Source: Terriglobia bacterium (GTDB lineage Bacteria; Acidobacteriota; Terriglobia; Terriglobales; Acidobacteriaceae). Taken from it: 64,000 nucleotides of DNA. The stretch is taken from contig JAIQGK010000003.1 of NCBI GenBank assembly GCA_020072645.1, positions 310,001 through 374,000 on the forward strand. Reading direction: 5' to 3'. The translations under genes and the position numbers were made by a program. The notes under the pieces were generated by a model. The model worked only from the letters and a program-made list of their open reading frames with translations, was not told the DNA's origin and did not search any database. Shown here piece after piece: positions 10,782 to 58,990 of this stretch. The stretch's first letter is position 1, and each line of letters starts with the position of its first letter.

Positions 10782-10820
10782 CGCGGGCTTGCTCTGCAAT
10801 CGCTTCTCACGGAGGTTTCC

Positions 10821-10886
10821 ATGAACCAGCATTGGCGCAAAGGGCGCGACTTCTATGGTCCCAACGGAAAAGCGATCCGGCCATGA
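10821..10886 (+). CDS. 21-residue micro-ORF
   Basis: ATG at 10821 with a strong CGGAGG site (TCACGGAGGTTTCC) encodes 21 residues, rich in Arg, Lys and Gly (HWRKGRDFYGPNGK). Its stop overlaps the ATG of the next frame (ATGA at 10883-10886), which has no site of its own. This looks like a coupled leader peptide or a small protein needed to translate the next gene. Confidence 0.45.
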   Translation: MNQHWRKGRDFYGPNGKAIRP

Positions 10887-11167
10887 TCCTGACGTTTAAG
10901 GGTGCCTATGGTTCGACAATTGACCTTGATCGAGACGGCGAAATTCAGGGCTACGAGTTCGTTGAACCTCCCATTGAATACCGGTTTCTGCGCGCGGGCT
11001 CCCCGAACTCGGACTGGGCCTCACCAGTGCCTGGATTTATCTCCCTCCTGCGGCCGGTAGTTATCGATGCCGGTGTGCGGACGCGAGGTCTGGATGCAAA
11101 GCATCTCGCAATCGAAACCCGTTGCCTTGCTGGAACTTTCATTCTGCTTGTTTGGCCACGCCTCTAG
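10883..11167 (+). CDS. Hypothetical protein
   Basis: A 94-residue product from the ATG at 10883, coupled to the micro-ORF stop. It is strand-rich at the start (MILTFKGAYGSTIDLDRDGE) and ends in a hydrophobic stretch (GTFILLVWPRL). No family recognised. The gene sits just before the helicase on the same strand. Confidence 0.5.
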   Translation: MILTFKGAYGSTIDLDRDGEIQGYEFVEPPIEYRFLRAGSPNSDWASPVPGFISLLRPVVIDAGVRTRGLDAKHLAIETRCLAGTFILLVWPRL

Positions 11168-11231
11168 CCGATTTGAGTAACGGCCAAACAATCCCCCAAA
11201 ACAAACTAATTCCGTAATCGAGAGGTCTTTC

Positions 11232-30227: not shown

Positions 30228-30941
30228 GTGGAATTCCCAAATCGGGTGTGGTATTCCATGTGCAGATTCATTCAGAGAATGTGCCCAGGCCCTCTAACGC
30301 GGCGCAGCCCGCAGTCCAAGGATACACAACTTCAACAGCTCAGCGACGAGGAAGTCATGCACGCCGTTCAGCAGGGCAATGGGGACGCCTTTGCCGTGCT
30401 GTTCGATCGCTTTCATCGCCTCGTTCTGGTTACTGCCCTCAAGATCGTACGGGACGTGTCCGAGGCCGAAGAAGTGACCCAGAATGTATTTTTCGAAATT
30501 TATCGGATTGCCGAGAAATTCGATTCCGCCAAAGGCAGTCTTAAAGTGTGGCTCTTGCAGTATGCCTATCATCGCAGCATGAACCGGCGAAACTACCTCG
30601 TGCTGCGACAGTTTTATAACCGGCCCGAACTTGATGAGGTGCTGGATTGGGAGGAAGGCACGCAGGGTCCGCCACAGCTGTTCAGCCAGGAGATCGCACG
30701 AGTGGTCAAAGAAGCGCTCGGCACCCTTAACGAGGCCCAGAAAAGGACCATCGAGATGGTGTTTTTCGAGGGGCTGACGCTGAGAGATGTATCGGAGAAA
30801 ACGAGGGAATCGCTCAGCAATGTCCGTAATCATTATTACCGAGGCCTCGAACGATTGCGGAGTTGCCTCACCGAAGAGCCTGAGGTCACCCGGCGCAGAA
30901 ATGCAGCGTCTGTTGGTGAGGTGAATCATGTTAAAGCATGA
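30228..30941 (+). CDS. ECF-type RNA polymerase sigma factor
   Basis: A sigma-70 family ECF factor. Region 2 is seen in GDAFAVLFDRFHRLVLVTAL and VSEAEEVTQNVFFEIYRIAE, and region 4 in KRTIEMVFFEGLTLRDVSEK followed by SLSNVRNHYYRGLERLR. The frame opens at 30228; the first 40 codons look like leader, and the true start may be near 30340-30360. The 3' end overlaps the anti-sigma gene by 14 bases, so they are a sigma/anti-sigma pair, placed directly upstream of a TonB-dependent receptor and an isopeptidase-like gene. It probably controls those genes in response to an outer-membrane signal. Confidence 0.88.
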   Translation: MEFPNRVWYSMCRFIQRMCPGPLTRRSPQSKDTQLQQLSDEEVMHAVQQGNGDAFAVLFDRFHRLVLVTALKIVRDVSEAEEVTQNVFFEIYRIAEKFDSAKGSLKVWLLQYAYHRSMNRRNYLVLRQFYNRPELDEVLDWEEGTQGPPQLFSQEIARVVKEALGTLNEAQKRTIEMVFFEGLTLRDVSEKTRESLSNVRNHYYRGLERLRSCLTEEPEVTRRRNAASVGEVNHVKA

Positions 30942-32214
30942 GCATTACCAAGAGATATGCGCAGTCGCCAGTATCGGTCAGGCGTCCGGCACGGAGTTGG
31001 CGGAATTGCAGCAGCACATGGTCTCCTGCCCAGAGTGCCGGCAGCGGTATTCGGATTTTATGGAGATCCAGGCGAGTCACTACGCGGTGACGACGGGCGA
31101 CCCGGAGCTCAGCGCGCCTGAAGCCACTGCATGCATAGACTCAGCGCTTCTACGTGAGAGATTTTTCAGGAGAGCGGAATCCCAGGGAATAGTTATCACT
31201 CACGCCGGTACAGGATCAATTCAGCCGGAACCGCGGATACGGCTCTTCACGCCAAAGACTTGGCCGGTACTGGCGGTTCGTGCCGCAGCCGCAATGTTCT
31301 TGGTCGGAGCTGTCGGCTTGACTGGATATTATCTTGGCGGCCGCCGCGTTCAAACTGCGTCTCTGACGCAGCACTCCTCTAACAGCCGAAGCACAGCTCA
31401 GATAGACGCTGACGGTCAGCAACTGCGGTTGAGACTGACAGGTCTAGAAGCTGAAAATCTCAGCCTGTCGGCTGAACTCGAGTCATTGAAGTCGTCTTAT
31501 GCGCGGGCATCTTCAGCCTTCGCTCGACTCCAAGACGATAATGCGGAGACCGAGAACCAGCGGTTTGCTTTGTCGGCCGATCTCAAAGAACGCGATGAAA
31601 TGATCGACAAACTGCGAAAGCGCGTAGAAGAAAGTCAGGCGGCAGCGGCTAGCGTGCGCGCCGAATTAGAGAGAGCGCAAGGCGGACGAGTTGAGGACCA
31701 GGCTACTCTGATCGAATCCCAGATTCGCATACGCGATCTATCGGAACAGTTGGCTGAGAAATCGAGCGCACTGGAGCGGGAGAAAGAGCTCTTGGTCGCC
31801 GGCAGAGACGTTCGTGAATTGATGGCTTCACGCAATCTGCATATTGTTGACGTGTTCGATACAGACCCTAAAGGCAAGACCCGCCCGGCTTTCGGAAGAA
31901 TCTTCCTTACTGAGGGCAAGTCGCTGATCTTCTACGCTTATGACCTCAACGACCCCCGCGTTCAGAACGCAGGGTATCACTATCGGGTTTGGGGAAAGCG
32001 AGAAGGACCAAGCCAGCACGCAAAGAGCCTGGGAATTTTCTATTCCGATGACAAGTCTCAGAAACGCTGGGTACTGCAATATGACGATCCCAAGGTGCTG
32101 CAAGAGATCGACTCAGTTTTTGTAACGCTGGAACCCCCAAACGGGGACCTGGCACAGCCCAAGGGCGACAAGCTCATGTATGCGTACCTGCGTGGCCAGG
32201 CAAATCATCCATAA
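30928..32214 (+). CDS. Membrane anti-sigma factor with zinc-finger and coiled coil
   Basis: A 428-residue protein. The N-terminus has the zinc-binding anti-sigma pattern H-x3-C-x2-C (LQQHMVSCPECRQRY). One membrane segment lies at about residues 110-135 (LAVRAAAAMFLVGAVGLTGY). A long coiled coil spans residues 160-300 (Leu/Glu/Arg heptads), and the C-terminal 110 residues (IFLTEGKSLIFYAYDLND, YHYRVWGKREGP, VFVTLEPPNGD) resemble the outer domain of RskA-type anti-sigma-K proteins. The layout is cytoplasmic anti-sigma domain, membrane span, then a periplasmic coiled coil and sensor. Such long coiled-coil versions are common in Acidobacteria. Confidence 0.8.
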   Translation: MLKHEHYQEICAVASIGQASGTELAELQQHMVSCPECRQRYSDFMEIQASHYAVTTGDPELSAPEATACIDSALLRERFFRRAESQGIVITHAGTGSIQPEPRIRLFTPKTWPVLAVRAAAAMFLVGAVGLTGYYLGGRRVQTASLTQHSSNSRSTAQIDADGQQLRLRLTGLEAENLSLSAELESLKSSYARASSAFARLQDDNAETENQRFALSADLKERDEMIDKLRKRVEESQAAAASVRAELERAQGGRVEDQATLIESQIRIRDLSEQLAEKSSALEREKELLVAGRDVRELMASRNLHIVDVFDTDPKGKTRPAFGRIFLTEGKSLIFYAYDLNDPRVQNAGYHYRVWGKREGPSQHAKSLGIFYSDDKSQKRWVLQYDDPKVLQEIDSVFVTLEPPNGDLAQPKGDKLMYAYLRGQANHP

Positions 32215-32310
32215 GTGTCGTCGGCACTGATTCAAATCCACAATTTTTTCCATCCTGCTGAAACATTTCGGAAAGCTTCTTGGCACACTCGAACAAAGGA
32301 GGGACCCAAC

Positions 32311-35300
32311 ATGTCCCTGTCACGCATCTTCGTGCGAAGTGCAGCACTTCGATTTGGACTGTTGGCAGCCTTCACGATGGTGTCCATAACAGTGCCCCTC
32401 GGCTTCGCGCAGACGGAACTTGCGACCGTCTTTGGACGTATCACGGACCAATCGGGCGCTGTAATGAGCGGAGTCGAAGTCGAAATCAGAAACGTCGGCA
32501 CAAATGCGGCACTCGTTGCCACAACCAACAGCGATGGTTTGTACTCGGTACCCTCGCTGCATCCGGGCGAGTACGTGATCTCCGTGAGGAAGCCGGGATT
32601 CCGAACGGTTTCAGCGACCGGGTTGGAACTCAACGTCCAGGACAATGTCATTCGGAATTTTGTCTTGCAGGTGGGATCAACCTCCGAATCGATTACCGTG
32701 AGCGCGGAAGCCGGAAAGATCAACACGACCGATGCATCGGTCAGCACGGTGGTGGACCGCAATTTTGCGGAAAACCTGCCGATGAACGGTCGTAGCTTTC
32801 AGACGCTGATCCAGTTGACTCCCGGTGTGGTTGTAACTGCCAGCAATGCTGGCGATCAAGGCCAATTCAGCGTTAACGGGCAACGCGCCGCCTCCAACTA
32901 TTGGATGTTGGACGGTGTCGGAGCAAACATAGGCATCGGCATCAGTTCACACGTCGTTGCTGGGAATGGTCTGGCGGGGGCCGCTGGATCATTCAGCGCG
33001 CTTGGTGGCACTAACAGCCTAGTTTCTGTTGATGCGATGCAGGAATTCCGCATCCAGACGTCGACGTATGCGCCGGAATTCGGCCGCGTGCCTGGCGCGC
33101 AGATCTCGATAGTTACTCGCAGCGGCACTAACCAGTTTCATGGGACCGTGTTTGACTACCTGAGAAATGATGCTCTCGATGCCAGCAACTGGTTCAATGG
33201 GTACACGAACAATCCTCCACTCCCAAAGGCGAAAGAACGCCAGAACGACTTCGGTGGGACGTTTAACGGTCCGATCTGGAAAAATCACACCTTCTTCTTC
33301 TTCTCGTACGAAGGGCTCCGATTGCAACTGCCACAAACAACCTTGACAACTGTCCCCGATCTTTTGTCACGCCAGAACGCATTGCCGGCTCTCCAGCCCT
33401 ATTTGAATGCGTTCCCCCTCCCCAACGGTCCCCCAGCCGTAGATGCGCAGGGCAGTCCAATTCCCGGTGTCGCGCAGTTCAACGCGAGCTATTCCAACCC
33501 TGCGTCGCTCGATGCCTATAGTCTTCGGCTCGACCATGCTTTGAACAAGAAAATTCTGCTATTTGGTCGATACAACTATTCCCCATCCGAAATCGTGCAA
33601 CGCGGCGACGCAGGTGCGCCGCTTAGCGTTGTCTCCCCCACAAATATCAGGGTACAGACGGCCACACTCGGCACGACTTGGACCCCGTCATCCTTGGTCG
33701 TAGACGATTTCCGCGCTAACTACAGCCAAACAAATGCCGCGAACAACAGGCTTCTAGATGGCTTCGGGGGCGCAACTCCATTGGCAGTTCTGCCATTCCC
33801 CGCTCCGTTCAACTCTCAGAATGGCCACCTGTTCATGGATATACTCCCATTGCAGGGCGGCATACTCGAAGCCGGACAACAGGGACACAACGTTCAGCAG
33901 CAAATCAACTTCATTAATAGCCTTGCGGTGCAAAGAGGCTCGCACAGTTTCAAATTCGGGGTCGACTATCGGCGGCTCTCACCCCTTGACGCACGTTTTT
34001 CCTATCAGCAGCTTGTCTATTTCTTGTCTGTGCCGGACGCCGAACAAGGGCAGCTGCTTCTTAACGCTCTGTACTCTAATGTCGATTCAACTTTCTTGTT
34101 CCGGAATCTCGGCATGTATGCCCAAGACACCTGGAGAATTGTTCCTCGTCTCACTGTTACCTATGGGGCACGATGGGACGTTGACTTCACCCCACGCTCC
34201 CTGCATGGGCCTGCATTGCCGGCGGTGACCGGGTTCAATCTCAGTGGTCTTTCTAACATAGCAGTGGCCCCTCTTGGAACTCCAGCTTACAGGACGACCT
34301 ACGGCAATGTTGCACCGCGTCTTGGGGTCGCTTATCAGCTGTCCCAGAAGCAAGCATGGCAAACGGTGCTTCGTGGTGGAGTTGGCCTCTTCTACGATCT
34401 TGCGAGTTCGGAGGTAGGCAACAGCATCGGTCCAGGTACATATCCTTTCGGGAGCTTCGTGCTAAATATCGGTGGCACTTTCCCTCTGACGCCGGCAGCC
34501 GCTACCCCCGCTCCGATCGCACCGCCCAGCACTGATGCCCCGACAATTCTTGCTGGCTTCGATCCTCATCTGGTGCTTCCGTATACGCTTGAATGGAACG
34601 TCGCCTTGGAGCAGTCGCTTGGCAAGGAGCAAACCCTATCCGCGTCTTATATCGGCGCCTCCGGCAGGCGCTTACTGCAAACAGTTCAGGGAGACCCTGG
34701 ACCAGCTTTTGTTCAGGCGCAAATTGTAGCTAACCTAGGCTGGTCTAGGTACGACGCGCTACAAGTTCAGTTGCAAAGGAGACTTTCCCACGGGTTGCAA
34801 GCACTTGCGTCTTACACATGGTCCCACTCAATCGATACCGGTTCAGCTGGCTCTGTCTATAGTGGGTCCAACGGGCCCATCGCATCAGCCGTTGAGCTCA
34901 GTCGCGGGCCTTCGGATTTCGATATTCGGCACACATTTTCTGCAGGCCTCACCTATGTCGTCCAAGCTTCTCAAGCGAACGCCTTCGCAAGAGCCATCCT
35001 CCGCGATTGGTCGATTGACAACATCATTCAGGCTCGTTCCGCGCCACCGGTGGATGTTGAGGATGGGAACAATCTTTTCGGATTTAACAACGGTGCATTT
35101 GCATCCATTCGGCCAGATCTAGTTTCAGGCCAGCCGCTTTATTTGCCCGGAACGCAGTTCCCTGGAGGAAGGGCTTTCAATCCCGAGGCATTCACGGATC
35201 CTCCGGTTGACCCTAATACTGGCAATGCTCTGCGCCAAGGCAACGTGCCCAGAAACTTCCTTCGAGGATTCGGTGCCACACAGTGGGATTTTGCCGTACA

Positions 35301-35553
35301 TCGCGACTTTCGGCTTCACGAGCCCTTGAAGCTTGAGTTCCGAGCAGAGATGTTTAACGTACTCAACCATCCCAATTTCGGACAACCCGGTGAACAATTC
35401 GGTGTTGGCGGATTTGGGGTGTCAAGCCAAATGCTTGGGCAATACCTGAACGGCGCCGGCGGAAGCTCCAATCTAGGGAGTGGCGGGTTCAGTCCTTTGT
35501 ACCAATTTGGAGGACCCCGCTCAATCCAGCTCGCAATGAAATTCATGTTCTGA
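32311..35553 (+). CDS. TonB-dependent receptor with carboxypeptidase-regulatory domain
   Basis: A 1080-residue outer-membrane protein. ATG at 32311 follows AAAGGAGGG; the frame is open from 32215 without a site. Signal peptide (RFGLLAAFTMVSITVPLGFA), then a CarboxypepD_reg/Cna-B-like domain (VFGRITDQSGAVMSGVEVEI, LYSVPSLHPGEYVISVRKPG). A plug domain follows (FAENLPMNGRSFQTLIQLTP, NGQRAASNYWMLDGV), then a long beta-barrel ending in MKFMF with the C-terminal Phe needed for outer-membrane assembly. It is the Acidobacteria-type TonB receptor often paired with substrate-specific genes. Here it lies between a sigma/anti-sigma pair and an isopeptidase-like gene near lasso-peptide genes, so import of the lasso product or a similar ligand is a reasonable guess. 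Confidence 0.88.
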   Translation: MSLSRIFVRSAALRFGLLAAFTMVSITVPLGFAQTELATVFGRITDQSGAVMSGVEVEIRNVGTNAALVATTNSDGLYSVPSLHPGEYVISVRKPGFRTVSATGLELNVQDNVIRNFVLQVGSTSESITVSAEAGKINTTDASVSTVVDRNFAENLPMNGRSFQTLIQLTPGVVVTASNAGDQGQFSVNGQRAASNYWMLDGVGANIGIGISSHVVAGNGLAGAAGSFSALGGTNSLVSVDAMQEFRIQTSTYAPEFGRVPGAQISIVTRSGTNQFHGTVFDYLRNDALDASNWFNGYTNNPPLPKAKERQNDFGGTFNGPIWKNHTFFFFSYEGLRLQLPQTTLTTVPDLLSRQNALPALQPYLNAFPLPNGPPAVDAQGSPIPGVAQFNASYSNPASLDAYSLRLDHALNKKILLFGRYNYSPSEIVQRGDAGAPLSVVSPTNIRVQTATLGTTWTPSSLVVDDFRANYSQTNAANNRLLDGFGGATPLAVLPFPAPFNSQNGHLFMDILPLQGGILEAGQQGHNVQQQINFINSLAVQRGSHSFKFGVDYRRLSPLDARFSYQQLVYFLSVPDAEQGQLLLNALYSNVDSTFLFRNLGMYAQDTWRIVPRLTVTYGARWDVDFTPRSLHGPALPAVTGFNLSGLSNIAVAPLGTPAYRTTYGNVAPRLGVAYQLSQKQAWQTVLRGGVGLFYDLASSEVGNSIGPGTYPFGSFVLNIGGTFPLTPAAATPAPIAPPSTDAPTILAGFDPHLVLPYTLEWNVALEQSLGKEQTLSASYIGASGRRLLQTVQGDPGPAFVQAQIVANLGWSRYDALQVQLQRRLSHGLQALASYTWSHSIDTGSAGSVYSGSNGPIASAVELSRGPSDFDIRHTFSAGLTYVVQASQANAFARAILRDWSIDNIIQARSAPPVDVEDGNNLFGFNNGAFASIRPDLVSGQPLYLPGTQFPGGRAFNPEAFTDPPVDPNTGNALRQGNVPRNFLRGFGATQWDFAVHRDFRLHEPLKLEFRAEMFNVLNHPNFGQPGEQFGVGGFGVSSQMLGQYLNGAGGSSNLGSGGFSPLYQFGGPRSIQLAMKFMF

Positions 35554-35803
35554 GCGTTCAACTGACGAGCGTTTCGGCAGAGAAGTGAACACTTCACCTG
35601 CTTCACGAGGTGGCGGGTCGGAGAATTTCCACCATCGCTTCTTTCGCTCTATGCCTTGGTTCTCCATGCTCTGACCACAAGCCAGAAAGGCACTGGAAGA
35701 CCTTGTACCAAGGATGAAGGAGTCACGTACAAGCCGGCGGCTGCGATTCAGTCTTCGTAGCGCGGCTTCGAGCAACAAATAAACAGCATAGGAGCCGAGC
35801 GAG

Positions 35804-37951
35804 ATGACCGGCAAAGTATTCAAAGTATTTTTCGCCCTTACCTTTCTGACCCCGTTGGGCATCAGTTCGCAAGCCCAGGCCCAAAAAAGACATCGAGTAA
35901 CATTTGAGGACTTGGACCACTTCAACGACACAGAGTCTTTGGCGCTCTCGCCCGATGGCGGAAAGCTGGCTTACACAGTCGAGGACACCGGGAAGGACAA
36001 TAACCTCGGGCTTTGGCTCATGGATACGCGTCAAGGCAGCCGTCCGCGAAAAATAGCTGATGGCCGTTTCCCAGTGTGGGCGCCGGACGGTCGGCGCTTG
36101 GCATACTATTCGCGCGACTCGGGAACCCTACAACTCTGGGAATTCGACCTAACCTCTAATCGACGCGTGCAGTTGACGCATATGAAGGGGGGTATTATCC
36201 CAGAAATTGGCACAGTAGGGTTGGGGTACTCGATTTTTGAGGCGGTACGTTATTCATGGTCACCGGACAGCACCAAAATCGTATTCTGCTCGCAGGTTTC
36301 GATCCCCTCGTCTCCACCACGGTATAAGAAGACCGCGCACAAATCGGCGACAGATCTCACTGGCACACCTCTTATCTTGACTCCTGGCACACCGACGGAT
36401 TGGACACTGGCTGGGGTGTTCGCTCAAGGAGTGACGCGACAGCGGCAATGGCACAACGGAAAGCAGGAGCATCGCGAATCCACGACTATTTATGCCGCTG
36501 CCACTACCACGCAACTCTTTGTCGTTGATTTACGCAGCAAGCAGACGGTGCAGCTGACTAAAGGAAATTTGGGATACTTTTCACCAGACTGGTCGCCTGG
36601 CGGAGAACAAATCGTATGTGTATCCAACGAAGGTCATTCCTGGGATTCCTATTGGGTGCACACAAACATTCACTTGATCCGTGCGTCGGACGGTCGAGAT
36701 ACAAATCTAACCGCAGACGAAGTGTCCAAGCACACACCCGCCTGGTCGCCCGACGGTCGCTGGATTGCCTATTTTGGCACCAACACTGAACACGTGAGCA
36801 AGGTGTCTTTGCTGATCTTACCTAGTGCCGGAGGGAATCCCATTGACACGAGTTCGAAACTCGACCGGAGAGTGTTTGATGCGCACTGGTTGCCTGACAG
36901 CAAGACAATGGTGGTGAACTACACAGATGGGCTCGACTCGCCGGTCGCGCGCCTCGACGTCATGTCGGGTGAACACGCAGTCATTAGCGGCTCCACGGCT
37001 GCGGGAAGGAGTTTCACATTCGCTGCATCGCGGTCAGGCGTGGTCGCGTGGACTCAGAGTGACCCAACAAATCCGGGTGTTATAAGGGTTGTGCCATATA
37101 ACGAAAACGCGTCTTACGTCCTGCTCGATCTGAACCCTGAAATCAAGAACTGGGATCTTCCAACCCAAGATGCAATTCATTGGACGACTCAGCGTGGTGA
37201 GAAAAGGGAGGGTATCCTGCTGAAGCCAGTCGGCTACGAGGAAGGAAAACGATATCCCCTGATTGTCGACGGCTATGTAAGAGGAAACGGCTTTAAAGCG
37301 GCGGCAATGGAAGGAAATATTGCCCTGGCCACAAGAGGGTACGCGGTGTTTTGGCCCGACGTAGAAGCACCGCATGACTGGGTAAATCCCTTTGAGTCGA
37401 TGGCAAATCAAGAAGCGGCAAAAGGAGTGAAGGGATTAAAGTTACTGTTTGACGACGCGATGTCTGGGGTAGACGAGCTAATTGCCAAGGGCATCGTTGA
37501 TCCGGATCGAATGTGCTTGTATGGATTCAGCAACGGAGGCGCTGTTGTCAACCAGTTGGTGACAATGACAGACCGATTTAAATGCGCAGTTTCAGTCGCG
37601 GGAGCACTCTCGTCCGATTGGTCAAGGCCTTTCTTTCTTCAGAGTAATGCCAAGTTCATACCTGATATCGCGGGCGCCACACCCTGGGAAGACACTCAGG
37701 CTTACGTCAAGCTATCAGCGATCTACCGCCTCGACAAAGTAAACACACCGATGCTTCTCGCAGACGGCGATGCTGACACGATGTTCCTGCTCGGCTGCAT
37801 CGAGACCTACAACGGCCTGCGGTTCCTCCAGAAGGACGTGACACTTTTGCGTTACCCAGGTCAAGGGCACGGCTTCGAAGGGCCAGCCCTGAGGGACTTC
37901 TGGGAACGGGAAAACGTGTTTTTCGATAAGTATCTCAGGCCTGTTCAATGA
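35804..37951 (+). CDS. S9-family peptidase, probable lasso-peptide isopeptidase
   Basis: A 715-residue secreted protein with signal peptide (MTGKVFKVFFALTFLTPLG, ending AQAQ). An N-terminal beta-propeller with PD40-type repeats (LSPDGGKLAYTV, WAPDGRRLAYYS, WSPDSTKIVF, WSPGGEQIV, WSPDGRWIAYFG) is followed by a prolyl-oligopeptidase alpha/beta-hydrolase domain. The catalytic Ser is in CLYGFSNGGAV (near residue 575), Asp in LADGDADTM, His in GQGHGFEGP. This is the architecture of lasso-peptide isopeptidases of the AtxE type, which open the macrolactam ring after import. The call rests on the convergent lasso biosynthetic operon; on sequence alone it could be a general dipeptidyl peptidase. Confidence 0.75.
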   Translation: MTGKVFKVFFALTFLTPLGISSQAQAQKRHRVTFEDLDHFNDTESLALSPDGGKLAYTVEDTGKDNNLGLWLMDTRQGSRPRKIADGRFPVWAPDGRRLAYYSRDSGTLQLWEFDLTSNRRVQLTHMKGGIIPEIGTVGLGYSIFEAVRYSWSPDSTKIVFCSQVSIPSSPPRYKKTAHKSATDLTGTPLILTPGTPTDWTLAGVFAQGVTRQRQWHNGKQEHRESTTIYAAATTTQLFVVDLRSKQTVQLTKGNLGYFSPDWSPGGEQIVCVSNEGHSWDSYWVHTNIHLIRASDGRDTNLTADEVSKHTPAWSPDGRWIAYFGTNTEHVSKVSLLILPSAGGNPIDTSSKLDRRVFDAHWLPDSKTMVVNYTDGLDSPVARLDVMSGEHAVISGSTAAGRSFTFAASRSGVVAWTQSDPTNPGVIRVVPYNENASYVLLDLNPEIKNWDLPTQDAIHWTTQRGEKREGILLKPVGYEEGKRYPLIVDGYVRGNGFKAAAMEGNIALATRGYAVFWPDVEAPHDWVNPFESMANQEAAKGVKGLKLLFDDAMSGVDELIAKGIVDPDRMCLYGFSNGGAVVNQLVTMTDRFKCAVSVAGALSSDWSRPFFLQSNAKFIPDIAGATPWEDTQAYVKLSAIYRLDKVNTPMLLADGDADTMFLLGCIETYNGLRFLQKDVTLLRYPGQGHGFEGPALRDFWERENVFFDKYLRPVQ

Positions 37952-38023
37952 AATCGGTGAGGATCGCAGATGGTTGGTTGAGCGGCACGGCATGTCTTTC
38001 GCTTGCTAGGTAGCGAGGGTTCT

Positions 38024-38116
38024 TCAGAATAGGAGAGCGAGGACTTCCTGCGGCTTGCTGCCCAAAATCAGCTCGCCAGGATCGCCCAGGACCTTGATTT
38101 CCGGGTTCTGGTGCTC
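38024..38116 (-). pseudogene. Degenerate second lasso-precursor copy
   Basis: On the - strand this reads EHQNPEIKVLGDPG, then ELILGSKPQEV, then LALLF and a stop, clearly a copy of the precursor at 38305-38427. It has lost the ATG and the AAAGGAGGT site (the equivalent region is AAAGAGAGGTAGAAAGAGAG). The candidate ring acceptor Glu9 is replaced by Ala, and the tail is cut to a few residues. It should not make a lasso peptide. The only upstream start is a remote TTG. Confidence 0.75.
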
Positions 38117-38229
38117 TCTTTCTACCTCTCTTTCTTTGATTGATCGAACTGCTTGCGCCAACCGATTCTTTCCAGATCAGCTGGCAACAGATTCCGACAA
38201 ATAGGATTCCCAGGCGATGAAGCGGACGT
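38042..38229. repeat. Direct repeat unit of duplicated precursor region (with 38347-38541)
   Basis: About 190 bases are repeated in direct orientation at a spacing of roughly 305 bases, at high identity. The right-hand unit contains the 3' end of the cyclase gene and the start and leader of the precursor gene. The left-hand unit contains the decayed second precursor and a non-coding relic of the cyclase end. This is a tandem duplication followed by decay of the copy farther from the operon. Confidence 0.8.
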
Positions 38230-38304
38230 TGGCACCTGGGGGAGGGCATCTCTCGGCCACAATAGTGGCCGAGGGATGGTAAAGCTTGTGTTCAGTCTCC
38301 TGTT

Positions 38305-38427
38305 TCAGTCAGATCTCGCACGGAGATGTTGGATATCGGTTTCAATGACTTCTTGCGGCTTGTTGCCTAAAATCAACTCGCCAGCATCGCCGAGAACCTT
38401 GATCTCTGGTTTCTGGTGGTCTGCCAT
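38305..38427 (-). CDS. Putative lasso-peptide precursor
   Basis: A 40-residue peptide with ATG at 38427 and a strong AAAGGAGGT site, 60 bases after the cyclase gene in the same operon. Leader KPEIKVLGDAGELILG fits the RRE-recognised pattern of lasso leaders (K/Y-x-x-P-x-I/L, Leu-Gly, then Glu-Leu-x-Leu before the core), except that the usual Thr at position -2 is Ile. Taking Gly21 as core residue 1, the acid at core position 9 (Glu, in GNKPQEVIE) suits a nine-membered macrolactam ring, leaving an 11-residue tail (TDIQHLRARSD). The core boundary and the ring are inferred; no chemistry can be seen directly. Confidence 0.6.
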   Translation of the reverse strand: MADHQKPEIKVLGDAGELILGNKPQEVIETDIQHLRARSD

Positions 38428-38486
38428 CTGTCTACCTCCTTTCTTCGATTGATCGAACTGTTTTGCGCCAACTGATTCTTTCGAGA

Positions 38487-40394
38487 TCAGCTGGCGATGG
38501 ATTCCGACAAATACGGCTCCGCACGTGCTGAAGCGGAAGTCGATAGAGAAAGAACGCCATGCGCCTCTGCGTTTCTGAGCCATACCTCTAGCGACAGAAC
38601 CTTGAGAAGACCGGCGACACGGCTCGGGAGTTGACCGTGCTTGATGCTTTCCATCTGCGCGCGAAGGGCTGCTCCATCAATGATGTGAAGGCGTGAAGAA
38701 ATTGGTGAGACCAGAAGATTGTGAACTTCGGTCCAGTGCTTCGCTACGGTAACCGCAATGCAACGCCCTGTGCCTGCTTTGGACTTTCGATGTAGTATTT
38801 CCGGGGGCAGAAGGTGTGAGAGCGCACGCCGCATGAGTGAACGCCGGTTGCCTGGCCGGAGCACCTGGTCCGTTGGAATGGACAGGAGAAACTCGACCAG
38901 GGTCTGGTCCAGGTATGGATATCGCTTCTCGGGAACCGTTGGCCGATGAAATGTTAGCTCGCGCCCAAAATTGATGATTGTCTGATAGGCGTCTCTGACG
39001 CTTGGTGTCCAAAACCATTTTCCCTCGGCAGCCGTAAGCGCGCGACTTGCTAAGCTGTATTGTCGGGCAAAGTCACGGTTGGTCCAGGGCCACACATCCG
39101 CCACGTTCGTTCCGACGCGCATTTGGCGAGGCAGCAACAGACTGAGGCTCTCTCCCAAAAGGTGTATGAGCGGATATCTTCTATCTAAGCACCATTTCAA
39201 TAGTTGAGAGCCACCCTCAGAAAAATGCAACCGCGCAAGACGATCGGCGATCTGCACTCTCACATCGAGAGCTTGCCCGTTAACCTCGTCTCCACCCTGT
39301 CCTGAAAGGACGACGCGGTATTTATGCCGATCGATTATGTCTTTTCGTGCTGACTGTATTTCCAGCCGTTCGCCGAACCCTGGGGTGGGCACAAAGCGTG
39401 AACAGGAGATGGGAAACGTGTCCCCGGTTCCTCGAATGGCGGCATGGTGGCCGGCTCGGCCTCGCTGCTCCTCAACCTTTATGAAATAGCGATGATCGTC
39501 CTCGTATGGCTCATCGCAATCGAAATAAGAAAAGGTGTCAATGCGAGGCGCATTAACGGGTTGCTGCTTCGAAAGCTCATCGGCCATACACACGATAGCG
39601 GACGAATCGAGGCCTCCGCTCAGCTCGGCAAGAATCACAGAGTCTGAGCAGAGACGGCGGCGAACAGCCTGACCAAAGAGACAACGGTACTGTTCTTCGT
39701 ACTCAGCATCTGTCTTACACCGGGTTTTAAGGCCGGGACTGAACTTCCAATGATTGCGCACCGTTGTGTTGCCGTCGTGAACGCGGATGAACTTTCCTGG
39801 AGGAACGGAGCGAATCTCGCTGTACGGCGTGAGGTCGGCGTCAGGGTAAAAAGAGAGATAACCAGCAATGTACTCGTTGCAGAGCGTGAAGCACTCTCCA
39901 GACAATACCAAGGGGGACATCAGGCTGCACCAGGTAATCCTCTTGTGCGTTAGGTGATAGAAAAGGTGTCTGACTCCGATATAATCCCTCGCAAGGATCA
40001 ATTCCAGTTCTCGCGGGTTCCAAATTGAGAGCGCCCAATCTCCTATCAGCTGCGAAAAGGAACGTACCCCGGCTTTGCGAAACCCTGCTGCCACGATAGC
40101 AACATCGGTCGAGTCCGCGTCTACCGAACCGCGGAGCTGTGCAATGAGTTCAGCTCGGTTGTCGAGTCGGCCATCCCAGGTGATGATGACTCCATCGTCA
40201 CAGACGTGTGGTTGTGTTTCGAGGCGCGAATGTGGCGTTGTGTGGAACGCTCGATAGAGTATTCCCATATTTCCGAGGACATGCATACTCTCGCCGTCCG
40301 GCCCATACTCCATAATGGTCTGACTGATGCGACTGAGCCGCTCCCGCCCAACTGGTTCTCCATCAAAATTCCATTCCCCGGCTTGAACGCTCAT
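38487..40394 (-). CDS. Lasso-peptide cyclase (asparagine-synthetase-like, C protein)
   Basis: A 635-residue protein from ATG 40394 with GAGGAGGGG upstream; a longer start at 40412 is possible and would overlap the B gene. The N-terminal half is a glutamine-amidotransferase-like domain (ITWDGRLDNRAELIAQL) that does not begin with the catalytic Cys, as in lasso C proteins. The C-terminal half is an asparagine-synthetase PP-loop domain (AELSGGLDSSAIVCMAD; SGQGGDEVNGQ). In lasso pathways this enzyme adenylates the acidic side chain and closes the ring. Coupled to the B gene upstream and followed by the precursor gene. Confidence 0.85.
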   Translation of the reverse strand: MSVQAGEWNFDGEPVGRERLSRISQTIMEYGPDGESMHVLGNMGILYRAFHTTPHSRLETQPHVCDDGVIITWDGRLDNRAELIAQLRGSVDADSTDVAIVAAGFRKAGVRSFSQLIGDWALSIWNPRELELILARDYIGVRHLFYHLTHKRITWCSLMSPLVLSGECFTLCNEYIAGYLSFYPDADLTPYSEIRSVPPGKFIRVHDGNTTVRNHWKFSPGLKTRCKTDAEYEEQYRCLFGQAVRRRLCSDSVILAELSGGLDSSAIVCMADELSKQQPVNAPRIDTFSYFDCDEPYEDDHRYFIKVEEQRGRAGHHAAIRGTGDTFPISCSRFVPTPGFGERLEIQSARKDIIDRHKYRVVLSGQGGDEVNGQALDVRVQIADRLARLHFSEGGSQLLKWCLDRRYPLIHLLGESLSLLLPRQMRVGTNVADVWPWTNRDFARQYSLASRALTAAEGKWFWTPSVRDAYQTIINFGRELTFHRPTVPEKRYPYLDQTLVEFLLSIPTDQVLRPGNRRSLMRRALSHLLPPEILHRKSKAGTGRCIAVTVAKHWTEVHNLLVSPISSRLHIIDGAALRAQMESIKHGQLPSRVAGLLKVLSLEVWLRNAEAHGVLSLSTSASARAEPYLSESIAS

Positions 40395-40408
40395 CGTTGG
40401 TCCCCTCC

Positions 40409-41161
40409 TCATAGGCGGTCTAGAACTAGAAAGGTGCTCGGAATATCTGCCTGCTCGTCAATGACTCGTCCATCCACTTCAGTCCAGGCGTGCTGGTCGA
40501 ACGGCACTTTCTGCGCACCAATAACCATCGCCGCATTCACGCCCAGGCTTCGCAAAAGGCATGTTGTAGTCGCCGAACGCTGCAAGCAGCGAACCCACTT
40601 CGGATAAAACACGCACGCGTAACTGACGGCCTTGCACACGCGATCAATCGCGTCGGGAACCGCAGGCCCATGCGATACCGGCCAGTTCTGTACGAACTCA
40701 TACAGTTCCACAATGTTCCTGCGGAGGCGCAGCAGGTCAAATACTTGCAGCATCGTGACTGCCTTGCCAAACAACCACAGCGGCCCAATGCCGTGCCTGT
40801 TAGACTGGCGCCCTACCGCTCTAGCACGGCGATGAATTAATCTGATGATCCATTGGCGACAGCTCGTTCTGCTGTCCCGCTCACCGTTGTCCAATAGCCC
40901 TAACCTCGTGACCTCGTTGACAAACTCCACGATTTCTTCATGCACCTGCTGTACCGGTAAACTGAGTTCAGTCGTTAGACAAGCCGTGATTTGCTCCAGC
41001 GAATAATTGACCTTCAGAAGGTCCCATATCCGCGCAGCCTCAGGGTTCAAACTTAGGCACAGTCGTTGCCGGATATCAAGAAGCACGGCTCCATCTTCGG
41101 TCTCAACAGTCCTGACCGAGTCTGATATTGTGCCGATCAATTCAAAATGCAAACTCGTCAT
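40409..41161 (-). CDS. Lasso-peptide B protein: RRE (PqqD-like) fused to transglutaminase-like leader protease
   Basis: A 250-residue fusion. Residues 1-95 are a PqqD/RRE domain (AVLLDIRQRLCLSLNPEAAR, VHEEIVEFVNEVTRLGLLDN) that binds the precursor leader. Residues 110-250 are the B2 cysteine protease of the transglutaminase fold, with KWVRCLQRSATTTCLLRSLG (catalytic Cys), PFDQHAWTEV (His) and DGRVID (Asp). These motifs are diagnostic of lasso B2 proteins. In Gram-negative-type clusters B1 and B2 are often one protein, as here. First gene of the operon; ATG with GAGGTGCT upstream. Confidence 0.9.
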   Translation of the reverse strand: MTSLHFELIGTISDSVRTVETEDGAVLLDIRQRLCLSLNPEAARIWDLLKVNYSLEQITACLTTELSLPVQQVHEEIVEFVNEVTRLGLLDNGERDSRTSCRQWIIRLIHRRARAVGRQSNRHGIGPLWLFGKAVTMLQVFDLLRLRRNIVELYEFVQNWPVSHGPAVPDAIDRVCKAVSYACVFYPKWVRCLQRSATTTCLLRSLGVNAAMVIGAQKVPFDQHAWTEVDGRVIDEQADIPSTFLVLDRL

Positions 41162-41628
41162 AGCACCTCAGCAGTGACCGCCGCTATCTGGGACAACTAA
41201 CCACGCGTGGCCTGAACGATTTAGGTGTGTGAGACGATCGGCGGAAAGCCTAGAGATACTTCGTAAGGGGTGTGATACGAAATACTGCGGCCTATACAAG
41301 CGCCAATTCGTACGCTGGAGATCATCTGTCATCCGTCATTCAGACGCACAACTAATTTTCATCCGTTCTGCTTCTAGAACTCTTCCACGCGGCATCACGC
41401 TTGTTGATAGACAGGAAAATACATGAGAGCGCACTAATGTCGAATTAGCACAGACAATCCCAGGAGTAGTTTTCCAAAAACACAAAATAAGAAAAATATA
41501 AATCGGCAAATGGCTGTGATGGCCGCATGATCACGTGCAACGGCTTGCGGTCGGAGCCAGCCGTCGACTAAGTGTCACCAAGAAACAATCATGCAATTCC
41601 AGTTCGCGATGCGCGATGAGTCGGTTCC
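41162..41628. other. Divergent intergenic region between lasso operon and CHAT gene
   Basis: No convincing gene. An AT-rich tract at about 41440-41510 is the likeliest promoter area for one or both neighbours. I looked for a further precursor ahead of the B gene on the - strand and did not see one. Confidence 0.5.
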
Positions 41629-44301
41629 ATGAAATCGTTTTCGAAACGTTCCATCTGCTCTCTCGCCGTTCTTTTTCTAGTGGTCATCTCTTTAGCTTTG
41701 TCCTGGAGCGTTAAGTCTCGGATGACCAACGCTCACCTTGAGATTCGACACGGTGATCCAATCGCGCTGCTTGCGGAGGCAAACCGTTTGTCGTGGTTGG
41801 GGAATTGGTATGCGGCGGGACCTCTCTATCAGCAAGCGGAGGGACGTTTTCACGCAAGCGGCGACACCGAGAACGAAATCTATGCTCGCATCGGACGCAT
41901 ACGGGCGCAAGCGGTGAATGTCCCGCTCGATCGGACGTTGTCACTGTTCAGCAACGAGTTGGAAGTGACGACAATGAACCCAAAGTCACGCCTGTGGTGC
42001 CTGGCGCTCAAAGGGTATCTAGAGATAAACAGCGACTCCAACTCCACTAAGCGTGATTGGACCGAAGCTCTGCAAATTGCAAACACCTTGGGAGAAAGCC
42101 AGTGGGCGGCCCGCGCAACTGGCGAACTTGGCGTTATCGCTTTCCTCGAAGGAAATACTGCGTCGGCGGTGAGCCAACTAGGAAAGGCGATTCTCTCTGC
42201 CTACCGCACCGGCGATACCGCTTCGCAAGTCCGCCTCCTATCGATGCTCGGAAATGGTTTCAACGAAGAAAGACGATTCTCAGAAGCGCTCACGATGTTC
42301 AAACGCGCCATTGCCACGACGGAAAGCACTCCGGATGCTGGATTCCCGTTCATGGCCTACGGCGGCGAGGCCGCGGCCCTGACCGGTCTGCATCAGACCG
42401 CACAAGCCAAGGAGTTGTTGGAAAGAGCATTAACCGCAGCTCGCTCACAAGAGAATCGGGTCAATGAGGCCGACTTATTGGTTCAGATGGGCGAAGTCGC
42501 ATTGGCGGAAGACAACTTAGATGCCGCGAAATCTCATTTTATCCAGGCCGGACGCATTGCCGACGAGATGAGACTCTATCGCACACTGTCCTATGCGATG
42601 TTCGATCTCGCCAACCTGGACCGACAGCTTGGTGATATAGAAAACGCGGGCGACGCCCTAACAGCCGGACTCAAAGCAAGCCGTCGTCTCGGAGATCGGT
42701 ATTATGTGCCCCGCGACCTTACGGCGATGGCCGAACTAGCAGTCGCCAAAAACAAGTTGCGACGGGCGGACAGGCTATTCGAACAGGCTGAAGACGTGCT
42801 GGACGGAATTCTGATCAATCAGCACAGCTTTGAGGAGAGCACAGCACGTGCAGGCTCAATGAGCAGCACATACCTTGAACATTTCCGCTTGGCCTTCCAG
42901 ATGGGAGATGTCGGGCGGGCATTTCAGGTTCTGGAGCGAGTTCGGGGTCGGACGGTTGCGAGTCATCTATACGCACGAGAAAACGTCAATAACAATTCGC
43001 CCCAGGTTGTCTCGCTAGAAGCCAAGATCGCGGCTACACAACTCGCATTGCTGAGAACCGATGACGCGAGAGAAAGATCGGCCGTTTTGGAGCAGTTGCT
43101 CGCAGATGAGCGCAATCTTGCTTTCGAGTTGAACGAGTCAGGACTGCAACGCCAAGAGATGCTCCTGAAACCCGCGGCTCTGAAAACCATTCAAACAGTT
43201 TTAGGGGAAGACGAAGTTCTGGTCGAATATGTCCTCGACGAGCCGAAATCATTTTGCATAGTGATCACGCGGAAATCAGCGGACCTTCGTGTCTTGCCAG
43301 CCGGCAGCAACAAACTCCAGACCGTGACAGGGTCTTACCTTTCCGAGTTGAAATCGAGGAGGTCCGGCGAACCATTCGCCGCCGAGCTCTATTCCCTCCT
43401 GGTCGAACCAGTCGTGAATTCATTTCAACAGTCTCGCCTGATCATCTCGGCTGATGGCATTCTGCACTTGCTCCCGTTCGAGGCGCTGTCACATGGCAAC
43501 AGCTTCGTCGTTGACTCAAAGGTCGTCTCCTACACGCCTTCAGCGACCGTGCTGTGGCGCCTGCGGACGACGCAGATTGCAGAGAGCCGCCGCCCCTTGC
43601 TCGCTGTCGGAGCGGTCGAATACAAGCTGGTACGAGCGCTGCCCAAGAGTGTTGAGCGAGGTTCGTTGACTGCCGTAGTCGTTAGAGGACTGGCTGAGCT
43701 TTCTAGTTCGCGCTTAGAGGACTTGCCCGGTAGTCGCGACGAAGTGCTGGCGATAGCCCAAATTGCCGGCCCGAATACCGAGCTACTACTTGGACAAAAG
43801 GCCACGGAGAGCGCCTTCAAGAACCAGGCGTTGGCTGATTATCGCGTGATTCATCTTGCCACCCATGCTGCGGCCGACCCGCAATACCCGGATCGAGCCG
43901 CTCTTGTTTTGGGAATCGCTCCGAACACGTCTGATGACGGATTACTCCAGGTGCGCGAGATTATGCATCTGCCGATCAAAGCAGACCTGGTCACGTTATC
44001 GGCCTGCGACACCAACGTCGGTACAGCAGAGGGAGAAGCCGGGGTGGTGAACCTTGAACAGGCGTTCCTGGTTGCCGGCGCGCGCGCGGTAGTGGCGAGT
44101 TTATGGAATGTCGAAGACAACTCGACTACCGCGCTAATGAAGGCGTTTTACACATATCTCGCGCAGCACGAAGATAAGGCATTAGCGCTCGCCCATGCCA
44201 AACGCGACATGCTGGAGCATTACGGAGATCCATCTCCTTACTATTGGGCGCCTTTTGTGCTGGTCGGGGAAGGCGCTCAAGCGGTCTCGTTCGGGAGATA
44301 A
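41629..44301 (+). CDS. CHAT-domain TPR protein
   Basis: An 890-residue protein. An N-terminal hydrophobic segment (SLAVLFLVVISLALSWSV) acts as a signal anchor. TPR repeats fill residues about 40-400 (e.g. ALTMFKRAIATTE, LERALTAARSQENR, AGRIADEMRL), then a CHAT (caspase-HetF) protease domain at 590-885 with the His in VIHLATHAAADPQYP and the Cys in VTLSACDTNVG, followed by GEAGVVNLEQAFLVAGARAV. Both catalytic residues are present. CHAT-TPR proteins act in signalling or regulated proteolysis. The next genes, on the other strand, encode a sigma/anti-sigma-like pair. Confidence 0.88.
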   Translation: MKSFSKRSICSLAVLFLVVISLALSWSVKSRMTNAHLEIRHGDPIALLAEANRLSWLGNWYAAGPLYQQAEGRFHASGDTENEIYARIGRIRAQAVNVPLDRTLSLFSNELEVTTMNPKSRLWCLALKGYLEINSDSNSTKRDWTEALQIANTLGESQWAARATGELGVIAFLEGNTASAVSQLGKAILSAYRTGDTASQVRLLSMLGNGFNEERRFSEALTMFKRAIATTESTPDAGFPFMAYGGEAAALTGLHQTAQAKELLERALTAARSQENRVNEADLLVQMGEVALAEDNLDAAKSHFIQAGRIADEMRLYRTLSYAMFDLANLDRQLGDIENAGDALTAGLKASRRLGDRYYVPRDLTAMAELAVAKNKLRRADRLFEQAEDVLDGILINQHSFEESTARAGSMSSTYLEHFRLAFQMGDVGRAFQVLERVRGRTVASHLYARENVNNNSPQVVSLEAKIAATQLALLRTDDARERSAVLEQLLADERNLAFELNESGLQRQEMLLKPAALKTIQTVLGEDEVLVEYVLDEPKSFCIVITRKSADLRVLPAGSNKLQTVTGSYLSELKSRRSGEPFAAELYSLLVEPVVNSFQQSRLIISADGILHLLPFEALSHGNSFVVDSKVVSYTPSATVLWRLRTTQIAESRRPLLAVGAVEYKLVRALPKSVERGSLTAVVVRGLAELSSSRLEDLPGSRDEVLAIAQIAGPNTELLLGQKATESAFKNQALADYRVIHLATHAAADPQYPDRAALVLGIAPNTSDDGLLQVREIMHLPIKADLVTLSACDTNVGTAEGEAGVVNLEQAFLVAGARAVVASLWNVEDNSTTALMKAFYTYLAQHEDKALALAHAKRDMLEHYGDPSPYYWAPFVLVGEGAQAVSFGR

Positions 44302-58387: not shown

Positions 58388-58402
58388 TTGCTTACGCTCC
58401 AG

Positions 58403-58990
58403 TCATAGCCGAGCGAACTTTCCGACGTTCGTGTCAAAAAGCCAGTTCTTAAAAAAGCCATATGGAAAGGTCGCTGCTTCGCTTCGAGAACCGACAACCA
58501 GCAATGTGTCACCAGTAAGTGCGGCGCGATCCTGTAGTTCCATCGCGTGCGCAACCTGCTCTGACAGGTGCCGCACCAGCGCATTTCCTTCGTCTGCGTC
58601 GCGCCGATAACAAAACACGACCCTCAATTGTGCTCGAATGCACAAGACTTTCCAAAGTGAATACGCAACCCGGTCGTCAGCCTTGCTATTCTCTAGCTCA
58701 AATGCCGCCACCGGGAACCGCCAGCGACGGTCGCCAGAAGCTTCGAATGCAACCACATCGAGCACTAGGTATTCGGAACGGGGCACCGGCAACAACTTTG
58801 AAATGTGTCCTTTGGCGGATGCCTCCCAGCCGAGAGCACCACATGTTGCGCATACGACCGACGTAAGTGCTTCGGTCCAGCGTCCCAGCTGTCCCCGCAT
58901 TGCTGCTTCCCGCAGAGGCACCGACGATTCGTGCATCTGCACGGTCTCAACGAACTTGCCAAACCATTCCGCGGACAATCCTGCTGTCAC
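58403..58990 (-). CDS. Conserved hypothetical protein in DUF1156/DUF499 operon
   Basis: A 195-residue protein. A GTG at 58990 overlaps the methylase stop by one base (TAGTG), the best start; the frame is open to 59035 inside the methylase gene. Seen: GLSAEWFGKFVETVQMHE, a CATCGALGWEASAKG stretch, and the central EYLVLDVVAFEAS...AAFELENSKADDRVAYSLWK. The paired acidic strands (LDVVAFE, FELENSK) recall PD-(D/E)XK folds, but the ExK is ELEN, so nuclease activity is not supported. A dedicated partner of the methylase or ATPase is likely from the tight coupling. Confidence 0.65.
   Translation of the reverse strand: MTAGLSAEWFGKFVETVQMHESSVPLREAAMRGQLGRWTEALTSVVCATCGALGWEASAKGHISKLLPVPRSEYLVLDVVAFEASGDRRWRFPVAAFELENSKADDRVAYSLWKVLCIRAQLRVVFCYRRDADEGNALVRHLSEQVAHAMELQDRAALTGDTLLVVGSRSEAATFPYGFFKNWLFDTNVGKFARL

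Follow-up and report, generated by a model that had tools for sequence, protein, structure and literature searches.

The 64,000-nucleotide stretch analyzed here (the window; Terriglobia bacterium, contig JAIQGK010000003.1, positions 310,001 to 374,000) carries a lasso-peptide locus that is the acidobacterial counterpart of the proteobacterial lasso clusters equipped with isopeptidase, TonB-dependent receptor, and sigma/anti-sigma genes. Genes for a sigma factor, an anti-sigma factor, a TonB-dependent receptor, and an S9 peptidase (30228–37951, + strand) face those for the lasso proteins B and C and the precursor (41161–38305, − strand) in a genome of 6.4 Mb in 42 contigs. All seven genes had been reported in a preliminary description of this DNA, made from the sequence alone, and were found where it placed them (Table 1); the observation is real, and its first reading is right in outline. 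On balance, gene content and comparison with relatives favor an isopeptidase-type lasso locus of Acidobacteria with signaling from receptor to anti-sigma factor and recycling of the peptide. What differs from the isopeptidase clusters in print is the phylum and the sensing parts.

In the proposed scheme, B would remove the leader of the 40-residue precursor, and C would close a Gly1–Glu9 ring on the threaded 20-residue core. The lasso peptide would leave the cell and be bound, with or without cargo, by the TonB-dependent receptor. Binding would be signaled via the CarboxypepD_reg domain of the receptor to the β-sandwich that forms the distal end of an anti-sigma factor reaching across the periplasm; the freed sigma factor would raise expression of the receptor operon, and the S9 peptidase would open the imported lasso. 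The genes, their motifs, the recurring gene order, and the tracking of anti-sigma factor and CarboxypepD_reg described later are shown by the sequence, which supports this signaling hypothesis short of proof.

Table 1. Predicted features of the lasso locus, in window coordinates
Feature	Position	Strand	Basis
ECF sigma factor (Sigma70_r2/r4), SigK-like	30228..30941	+	Pfam, NCBIfam
Anti-sigma factor: zinc motif, transmembrane helix, long helix, C-terminal β-sandwich	30928..32214	+	Alignment, AlphaFold
TonB-dependent (Oar-like) receptor: CarboxypepD_reg, plug, barrel	32215..35553	+	Pfam
S9 prolyl-oligopeptidase-type peptidase, presumed lasso isopeptidase	35804..37951	+	Pfam, NCBIfam
Decayed second precursor copy	~38025..38120	−	Direct repeats, three-frame reading
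Lasso precursor, 40 amino acids	38305..38427	−	Open reading frame; ribosome site read by eye
C, asparagine-synthetase-like lasso cyclase	38487..40412	−	Pfam, NCBIfam
B, RRE (PqqD) fused to leader peptidase (Transglut_core3)	40409..41161	−	Pfam, NCBIfam

The biosynthetic genes are recognizable from their domains. The B1–B2 fusion with CLxRS…HAW protease motifs proposed earlier is borne out: CLQRS, QHAW, and VIDE can be read in B, and its PqqD/RRE (34.8 bits) and Transglut_core3 (63.8 bits) domains score above the Pfam cut-offs, as does lasso_biosyn_B2 among NCBIfam models (61 bits, cut-off 33); two lasso PqqD models stayed below theirs. In C, which overlaps B by 4 bases, Asn_synthase (113.6 bits) and GATase are both above the Pfam cut-off, and among NCBIfam models the lasso cyclase ranks first (265 bits, under the cut-off of 525). 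No plasmid relatives of B were found. The reported lack of an ATP-binding cassette (ABC) exporter also holds for the window: the ABC signature motif is absent from every open reading frame (ORF) of at least 180 amino acids, and the exporters, kinases, and oligopeptidases of relatives, used as queries, gave no match in the 64 kb at E ≤ 1e-4.

The precursor (MADHQKPEIKVLGDAGELILGNKPQEVIETDIQHLRARSD) is encoded behind AAAGGAGGT, a strong ribosome site as judged by eye. We propose that the core begins at GNKPQEVIE…, giving the 20-residue sequence GNKPQEVIETDIQHLRARSD with Ile at leader position −2, and that the ring is G1–E9; the assignment of E9 holds if cleavage follows Ile-Leu, an assumed site. 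Precursors of relatives were collected one per locus, leaving out loci without a candidate and ORFs judged spurious by eye. In all 50 precursors (49 relatives and the window), Ile or Val stands 12 (47 cases) or 11 (3 cases) residues past the leader proline, where the script chose 12 or 11 by the presence of I, V, or T. For a comparison of classes, the window was set beside 48 relatives (loci L141–L217; L165 was dropped as identical to L157), with the core start taken from the conserved Ile/Val. Two classes emerged, without and with a conserved C-terminal motif (AYEADE, AYDLDE, YADWE, and the like). An acidic residue at core position 7–9 occurs in 13/13 motif-free precursors, the window included, versus 8/36 with the motif (Fisher p = 7.7e-7). 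The remaining 28 of the 36 often have their first acidic residue at positions 10–16; this class might form larger rings, start its core later, or be trimmed a second time.

Direct repeats of 76 and 58 nucleotides (each 86% identical; spacing 305 and 310 bases) point to a past duplication covering the precursor and the end of C. The second precursor copy, absent from the preliminary description, has decayed: in a three-frame reading it has neither an ATG start nor an acidic residue at core 7–9.

On the facing strand, the extracytoplasmic-function (ECF) sigma factor, anti-sigma factor, and receptor ORFs overlap (sigma/anti-sigma by 14 bases) or abut and are predicted to form a single operon. The sigma factor matches Sigma70_r2 and r4 (38.2 and 36.9 bits, Pfam) and the sigma70-ECF model TIGR02937 (65.8 bits, above the cut-off of 42.9); PRK12519 (114 bits) and SigK PRK09646 (106.5 bits) score under their own cut-offs. 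An alignment of 43 anti-sigma proteins shows a zinc motif (H30/C34/C37) and a conserved C-terminal domain; RskA_C reaches 24.9 bits, under the Pfam cut-off of 29.4. The AlphaFold model has a transmembrane helix at ~112–137, a single helix of 140 residues (161–300), and a β-sandwich (304–420), with a predicted local distance difference test score (pLDDT) of 79.6; at a predicted template-modeling score of 0.36, the relative placing of these domains is not trusted. At a rise of 0.15 nm per residue, the 140-residue helix would be about 21 nm long. The model gave no fold match at E ≤ 0.001. The spacer between transmembrane helix (placed by hydropathy) and sensor has a narrow length distribution (median 169 residues, interquartile range 162–170, range 154–190, n = 53) though the region is only ~24% identical.

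The receptor, whose true start is likely an ATG near 32311 (by eye), matches OMP_b-brl_4 (506 bits) and, as the preliminary description had stated, carries CarboxypepD_reg (62.9 bits, residues 71–152); in the Pfam search, CarboxypepD_reg stands in place of an STN signaling domain, for which there was no match. In FecI/FecR/FecA surface signaling, an ECF sigma factor, an anti-sigma factor, and a TonB-dependent receptor are encoded in one operon. The window shares this trio and differs in its receptor without STN match and its anti-sigma factor without FecR match (Pfam).

The arrangement recurs across the phylum. B matches were found in 85 of the 399 genomes of the class (E ≤ 0.001), and the order B–C facing S9–receptor–anti-sigma–sigma is seen in many of the 58 loci fetched, namely 57 of the class matches and a second lasso locus of the same genome. 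When named genomes were scanned with a cyclase alignment that was itself acidobacterial (best 80 of 116 kept), 77 loci were left, all bearing genus names that we take to be acidobacterial, in keeping with the phylum guessed earlier. Gene content was counted in the named loci only (L141–L217), several of which come from one genome. The preliminary description had suggested looking for co-occurrence in relatives, and it is seen: among the 53 loci whose sequence extends 7.5 kb or more beyond C on the downstream side, a convergent S9 gene was found in 41, a convergent receptor in 48, and both in 41 (38, 48, and 38, respectively, with the window S9 as sole S9 query). An anti-sigma gene was also present in 23/37 loci with at least 9.5 kb downstream. 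Seven loci have a receptor and no S9 match (L143, L158, L162, L169, L191, L207, and L217), and five have neither (L196, L209, L210, L214, and L215). As controls, 20 stretches at places chosen by the analyst on contigs of 20 lasso-bearing genomes of the class were searched with the same queries. S9 and receptor occurred together in none of them; there was no sigma, anti-sigma, S9, kinase, or oligopeptidase match, while receptor matches occurred in 4/20 (two full-length, in L133) and ABC matches in 2/20.

The suggestion that the locus resembles the scavenging type of lasso cluster fits the layout of the window, which has no exporter. In many relatives, B1 and B2 are separate genes, and the cluster further includes a kinase (APH), another prolyl oligopeptidase, and an exporter of the ABC type; in the 53 named loci that reach 7 kb or more upstream, an ABC-exporter-like match was found in 29, a kinase in 25, an oligopeptidase in 28, and none of the three in 13.

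The anti-sigma family extends beyond lasso loci. The anti-sigma factor has one match only within its own genome, and we considered whether it is lasso-specific; this was rejected at the level of the class, where the family is matched in 95/399 genomes. Since 33/102 strong matches have a lasso B place no more than 15 kb away (a lower bound, given contig ends), the sigma/anti-sigma/receptor trio is not lasso-specific. A strong match occurs in 42/47 genomes with a picked B place versus 37/352 others, uncorrected for lineage; the 59 B places were picked by hand from the class matches, omitting one short fragment, and 38 of the 352 genomes tallied as without B hold weaker B matches. The scan scored at most four candidates per genome, so that counts near and away from B may be low. 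Of the 69 strong matches away from B, 20 were fetched, picked by visual inspection and from the first entries listed. In the stretches examined, some of them on short contigs, none had a match to B or C, and in four (L101, L108, L112, and L117) a receptor and an S9 gene are adjacent. Judging by gene content, these four are possible receivers without production. In L117, the S9 protein and the receptor are 40% and 59% identical to their lasso-locus counterparts, and a helix-turn-helix gene of the cluster type adjoins.

To relate the anti-sigma factor to the receptor, pairwise identities were compared in 53 of 62 pairs remaining after removal of near-duplicates (41 lasso and 12 non-lasso loci), with permutation tests that ignore shared ancestry. 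In the 41 lasso loci, identity of the anti-sigma C-terminal domain rises and falls closely with CarboxypepD_reg identity (rho 0.88, 0/199 permutations), with little relation to the plug (0.17, 2/199) or the barrel (0.06 and 0.09, 43 and 27/199). The tracking holds in close pairs (0.67; plug 0.20) and in distant ones (0.75; plug −0.04), and over all 53 pairs it amounts to 0.78. A search of the literature accessible to us found no paper joining a carboxypeptidase regulatory(-like) domain, a TonB-dependent receptor, and an anti-sigma or sigma factor.

The tracking could also reflect linkage rather than contact, with a breakpoint at the CarboxypepD_reg/plug boundary: plug and barrel would recombine there, and sigma, anti-sigma, and CarboxypepD_reg would travel together neutrally. 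We regard this as a real though minority possibility. In its favor, CarboxypepD_reg and plug are nearly uncorrelated (rho 0.16) versus 0.83 for plug and barrel in the 41 lasso loci, and DNA identity between the window and its nearest relative by regulators (L143, from the metagenome bin Candidatus Sulfotelmatobacter sp. RYN_10) falls from 79–95% over sigma and anti-sigma to 61–77% at the receptor start, with the interior at 65% or unaligned. However, the tracking ends sharply within a few hundred bases of the anti-sigma gene, at a boundary between domains, the strongest partner of CarboxypepD_reg is the anti-sigma C-terminal domain, and the barrel end and S9, equally adjacent, show no tracking (rho −0.09 in 26 loci). 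The 26 loci were taken from 78 by requiring that the C, receptor, S9, and anti-sigma sequences be complete. Within them, the idea that barrel, S9, and lasso genes are swapped as one unit found only partial support: C is weakly correlated with the barrel (Pearson 0.30, 1/999) and also follows S9 (0.22, 1/999), and S9 hardly follows the barrel, with a Pearson value of 0.11 (38/999) and a rank correlation of about −0.1.

The comparison with L143 illustrates the uneven divergence. Protein identity is 92.6% for sigma, 86.2% for anti-sigma, 64.2% for the receptor, 49.3% for C, and 44.5% for B, and the cores differ; the background, taken from an rpoB stretch, is 85.9% in protein, below the value for sigma, and 78% in DNA. 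At the DNA level, the two loci are 80% identical over 30244–33311 and 78% over the far flank (41240–43081); between these, two pieces align at 65% and one 67-base piece at 81%, and the rest does not align. We claim no rate of exchange because the 12-kb contig of L143 could be misplaced in its metagenome bin.

Several observations weigh against the proposed scheme, besides the occurrence of the trio away from lasso genes. In the 12 non-lasso loci, the tracking with CarboxypepD_reg is weak for the anti-sigma C-terminal domain (0.25, 17/199) and the middle part (0.10, 57/199), and the zinc domain is the strongest of the three (0.42, 1/199). Over all 53 pairs, the plug tracks somewhat as well (0.32, 0/199). 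Between the window and L143, CarboxypepD_reg (63–77%, block by block) shows no stronger conservation than the plug (75–85%), and L143 has no S9 match, a Laminin_G_3 protein occupying that position. The distance from zinc motif to sensor varies between 237 and 286 residues. A promoter common to both operons was searched for, and no shared motif was found. The motif ATACAAA-N15-GCATACT, exact, precedes sigma in 5/49 loci, all non-lasso (L105, L106, L109, L111, and L120), and is missing on the sigma strand upstream of the sigma gene in the window.

A more specific version of the signaling hypothesis is offered tentatively. The self-made lasso would be the ligand, CarboxypepD_reg would stand in for the signaling domain of FecA, and the anti-sigma helix would act as a periplasm-spanning ruler that reads it; the sensor would be kept while barrel, peptidase, and lasso genes turn over, giving rise to private peptide–receptor types and to non-producing listeners. 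Two results weaken this version: there is no tracking between S9 and barrel, and in the nearest pair CarboxypepD_reg does not stand above the plug in conservation. The tracking in itself offers a handle on how a family found in about a quarter of the genomes of the class may be signaled to across two membranes.

The S9 protein is probably the lasso isopeptidase, as judged from its family and its position. It has a Peptidase_S9 domain (85 bits, Pfam) and, by eye, a signal-like N-terminus, and its best NCBIfam model is the AtxE2 isopeptidase (NF033523, 162 bits), followed by Dpp5 (111 bits). We aligned 49 such proteins, 43 from lasso loci including the window, five from receptor loci without lasso genes, and one paralogue from the same genome. 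All match the isopeptidase model at E ≤ 0.001 (Dpp5 in 40/49), S576 and H689 are invariant, and in 10 proteins scanned singly the isopeptidase model was best in nine. In L036, a locus that also appears among the named ones as L159 (Candidatus Acidiferrum typicum; S9 gene match 100%), the protein in the same gene slot passes the cut-off (438 versus 400 bits). The window S9 itself, called isopeptidase-like in the preliminary description, lies well under the cut-off (162 versus 400 bits), for which reason isopeptidase activity is something we infer, and its fold is not diagnostic.

A rather less probable explanation is that this S9 protein is a general peptidase, similar to Dpp5 or acylaminoacyl-peptidase, that digests the peptide after it has been opened by other means or serves scavenging, the lasso being a secreted effector and the receptor mainly a route of uptake. 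The shortfall in bits is in its favor, as are the structural comparisons. The AlphaFold model (pLDDT 79.3) shows a β-propeller and an α/β-hydrolase domain with Ser/His catalytic residues, a fold that is not diagnostic of isopeptidases because it is common to S9 peptidases. Foldseek placed the S9 carboxypeptidase 8wt1 first (template-modeling score, TM, 0.76), then a Deinococcus S9, with AtxE2 at rank 22 (TM 0.52) and SpI-IsoP at rank 43 (TM 0.66), so that ordinary S9 proteins are closer; identification by fold was rejected. Identification by family score alone was rejected as well, the AtxE2 model also matching ordinary S9 proteins: it matches in 11/14 control genomes and at 39 places in the same genome, none above the cut-off and with the window locus second. 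The 41%-identical paralogue scores higher (178 bits), and the 20 kb retrieved at its locus hold no lasso gene. Among seven other S9 proteins of this genome, three of them cut at the locus end, Dpp5 scores higher in five and the isopeptidase model in two, this paralogue being one of the two, and Dpp5 is also ahead in the receptor-linked S9 of L112. Finally, 12 of the 53 named loci, L143 included, have no S9 match. Against a general peptidase stand the rank of the isopeptidase model for the window S9, the over-cut-off AtxE2-family protein in the same slot in another acidobacterium, and the presence of an S9 gene in that slot in 41/53 loci; we keep to isopeptidase as the presumed function.

It is improbable that this is a decaying or silent locus on an accessory island in the course of losing its lasso part: the decayed precursor copy and the signs of an accessory region, including integrase and Hma-type defense genes in the window, would fit, but all seven principal genes are open and the retained precursor has its strong ribosome site. 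The region is probably accessory, since B is matched in 2/9 genomes of the genus (its own included) and the flanking CHAT-TPR gene finds only 30–34% identity as best match in each of the other eight. That gene (41629–44301, +) adjoins the lasso operon and shares ~78% DNA identity with the same flank in L143. A phage-type integrase (2884–4131, −), with two adjoining same-strand ORFs (873–2884), fits an accessory region. Farther away, at 55625–63428 (−), are matches to two Hma anti-phage proteins, HmaC (400 bits) and HmaB (437 bits), next to a gene for an AAA ATPase. Searches of the window for RNA families (gathering score) and tRNAs gave no match.

The preliminary description had likened the locus to a type of lasso cluster familiar from Proteobacteria, and its author did not know the combination with a CarboxypepD_reg receptor and a long coiled-coil anti-sigma factor as described. 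The architecture as such is in print: in its accessible portion, a review (PMC9266682) describes isopeptidase lasso clusters with B, C, A, isopeptidase, TonB receptor, and sigma/anti-sigma genes, usually without exporter, rubrinodin being a case with both exporter and isopeptidase, and terms their function enigmatic. The proteobacterial astexin, sphingopyxin I, and benenodin-1 clusters resemble the window in B, C, A, S9-type isopeptidase, TonB receptor, and sigma/anti-sigma genes, as far as the accessible descriptions go. The window differs from such clusters in being acidobacterial, in Ile(−2), in an S9 protein under the AtxE2 cut-off, in an Oar-like receptor with CarboxypepD_reg and without STN, and in a zinc-type anti-sigma factor with a long helix and no FecR match. 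Its order is B-C-A, with the precursor last, whereas the review has a GntR-like gene before the precursor; no search for GntR was made here. A 2026 review, in the part available, places isopeptidase genes primarily in alpha-proteobacteria (PMC13352647), and a lasso cluster is listed in Granulicella (PMC7074687, accessible text).

Closer in phylum are the acidobacterial soil-metagenome clusters 482.1, 40.1, and 44.1 (PMC9064862, available portions), which like the window have B and C genes. They have separate B1 and B2, with a kinase in 482.1 and ABC genes in 44.1; a 2118-bp unnamed gene beside the precursors of 482.1 has, in our own reading, the length of an S9 gene. The accessible text on these clusters contains no isopeptidase, TonB, or sigma term. 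The Bradymonas bsf cluster shares with the window Ile(−2), a residue said in the available text (PMC10368454) to occur there also in Acidobacteriaceae, and differs in its separate B1/B2, kinase, and ABC transporter. The Sphingomonas sphingocin locus has an isopeptidase and a TonB receptor beside the lasso operon, like the window, but is alphaproteobacterial and tied to phenanthrene use; a siderophore-like role is discussed for sphingocin (PMC11006600, accessible portion). No acidobacterial lasso cluster with isopeptidase, TonB receptor, and sigma factor was described among the matches listed in our literature search, which had most subscription papers outside its reach. The occurrence of such clusters in two phyla that differ in their sensing apparatus makes comparison possible: any function proposed for these lasso peptides should fit both.

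The same genome has a second lasso locus (L003, C6:30000–49990) with a fused B and C at 9327–11934 and the candidate precursor MQYQKPQLHFIGNASKLIQIKGSDVIDVDIPGHAKIGLFSKLEEE; there was no S9, receptor, or sigma match within its 20 kb. In relatives, the C-terminal precursor motif goes with the tailoring genes. In loci with at least 3.5 kb upstream, drawn from the 49 relatives' precursors, YEADE occurs with APH in 16/18 and with the prolyl oligopeptidase in 12/18, YDLDE with the oligopeptidase in 8/8, and YADWE with a glycosyltransferase in 5/7. Two glycosyltransferase-8-type genes and a further glycosyltransferase are found in L038, L043, L046, L048, L053, L160, and L171–L174, some with GH92 and GH127 glycosidases and mostly with two cyclase genes. 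In the named loci among these (L160 and L171–L174), the precursors end in YADWE or YMDWE, and from their gene content the glycosyltransferase-bearing loci possibly make glycosylated lasso peptides.

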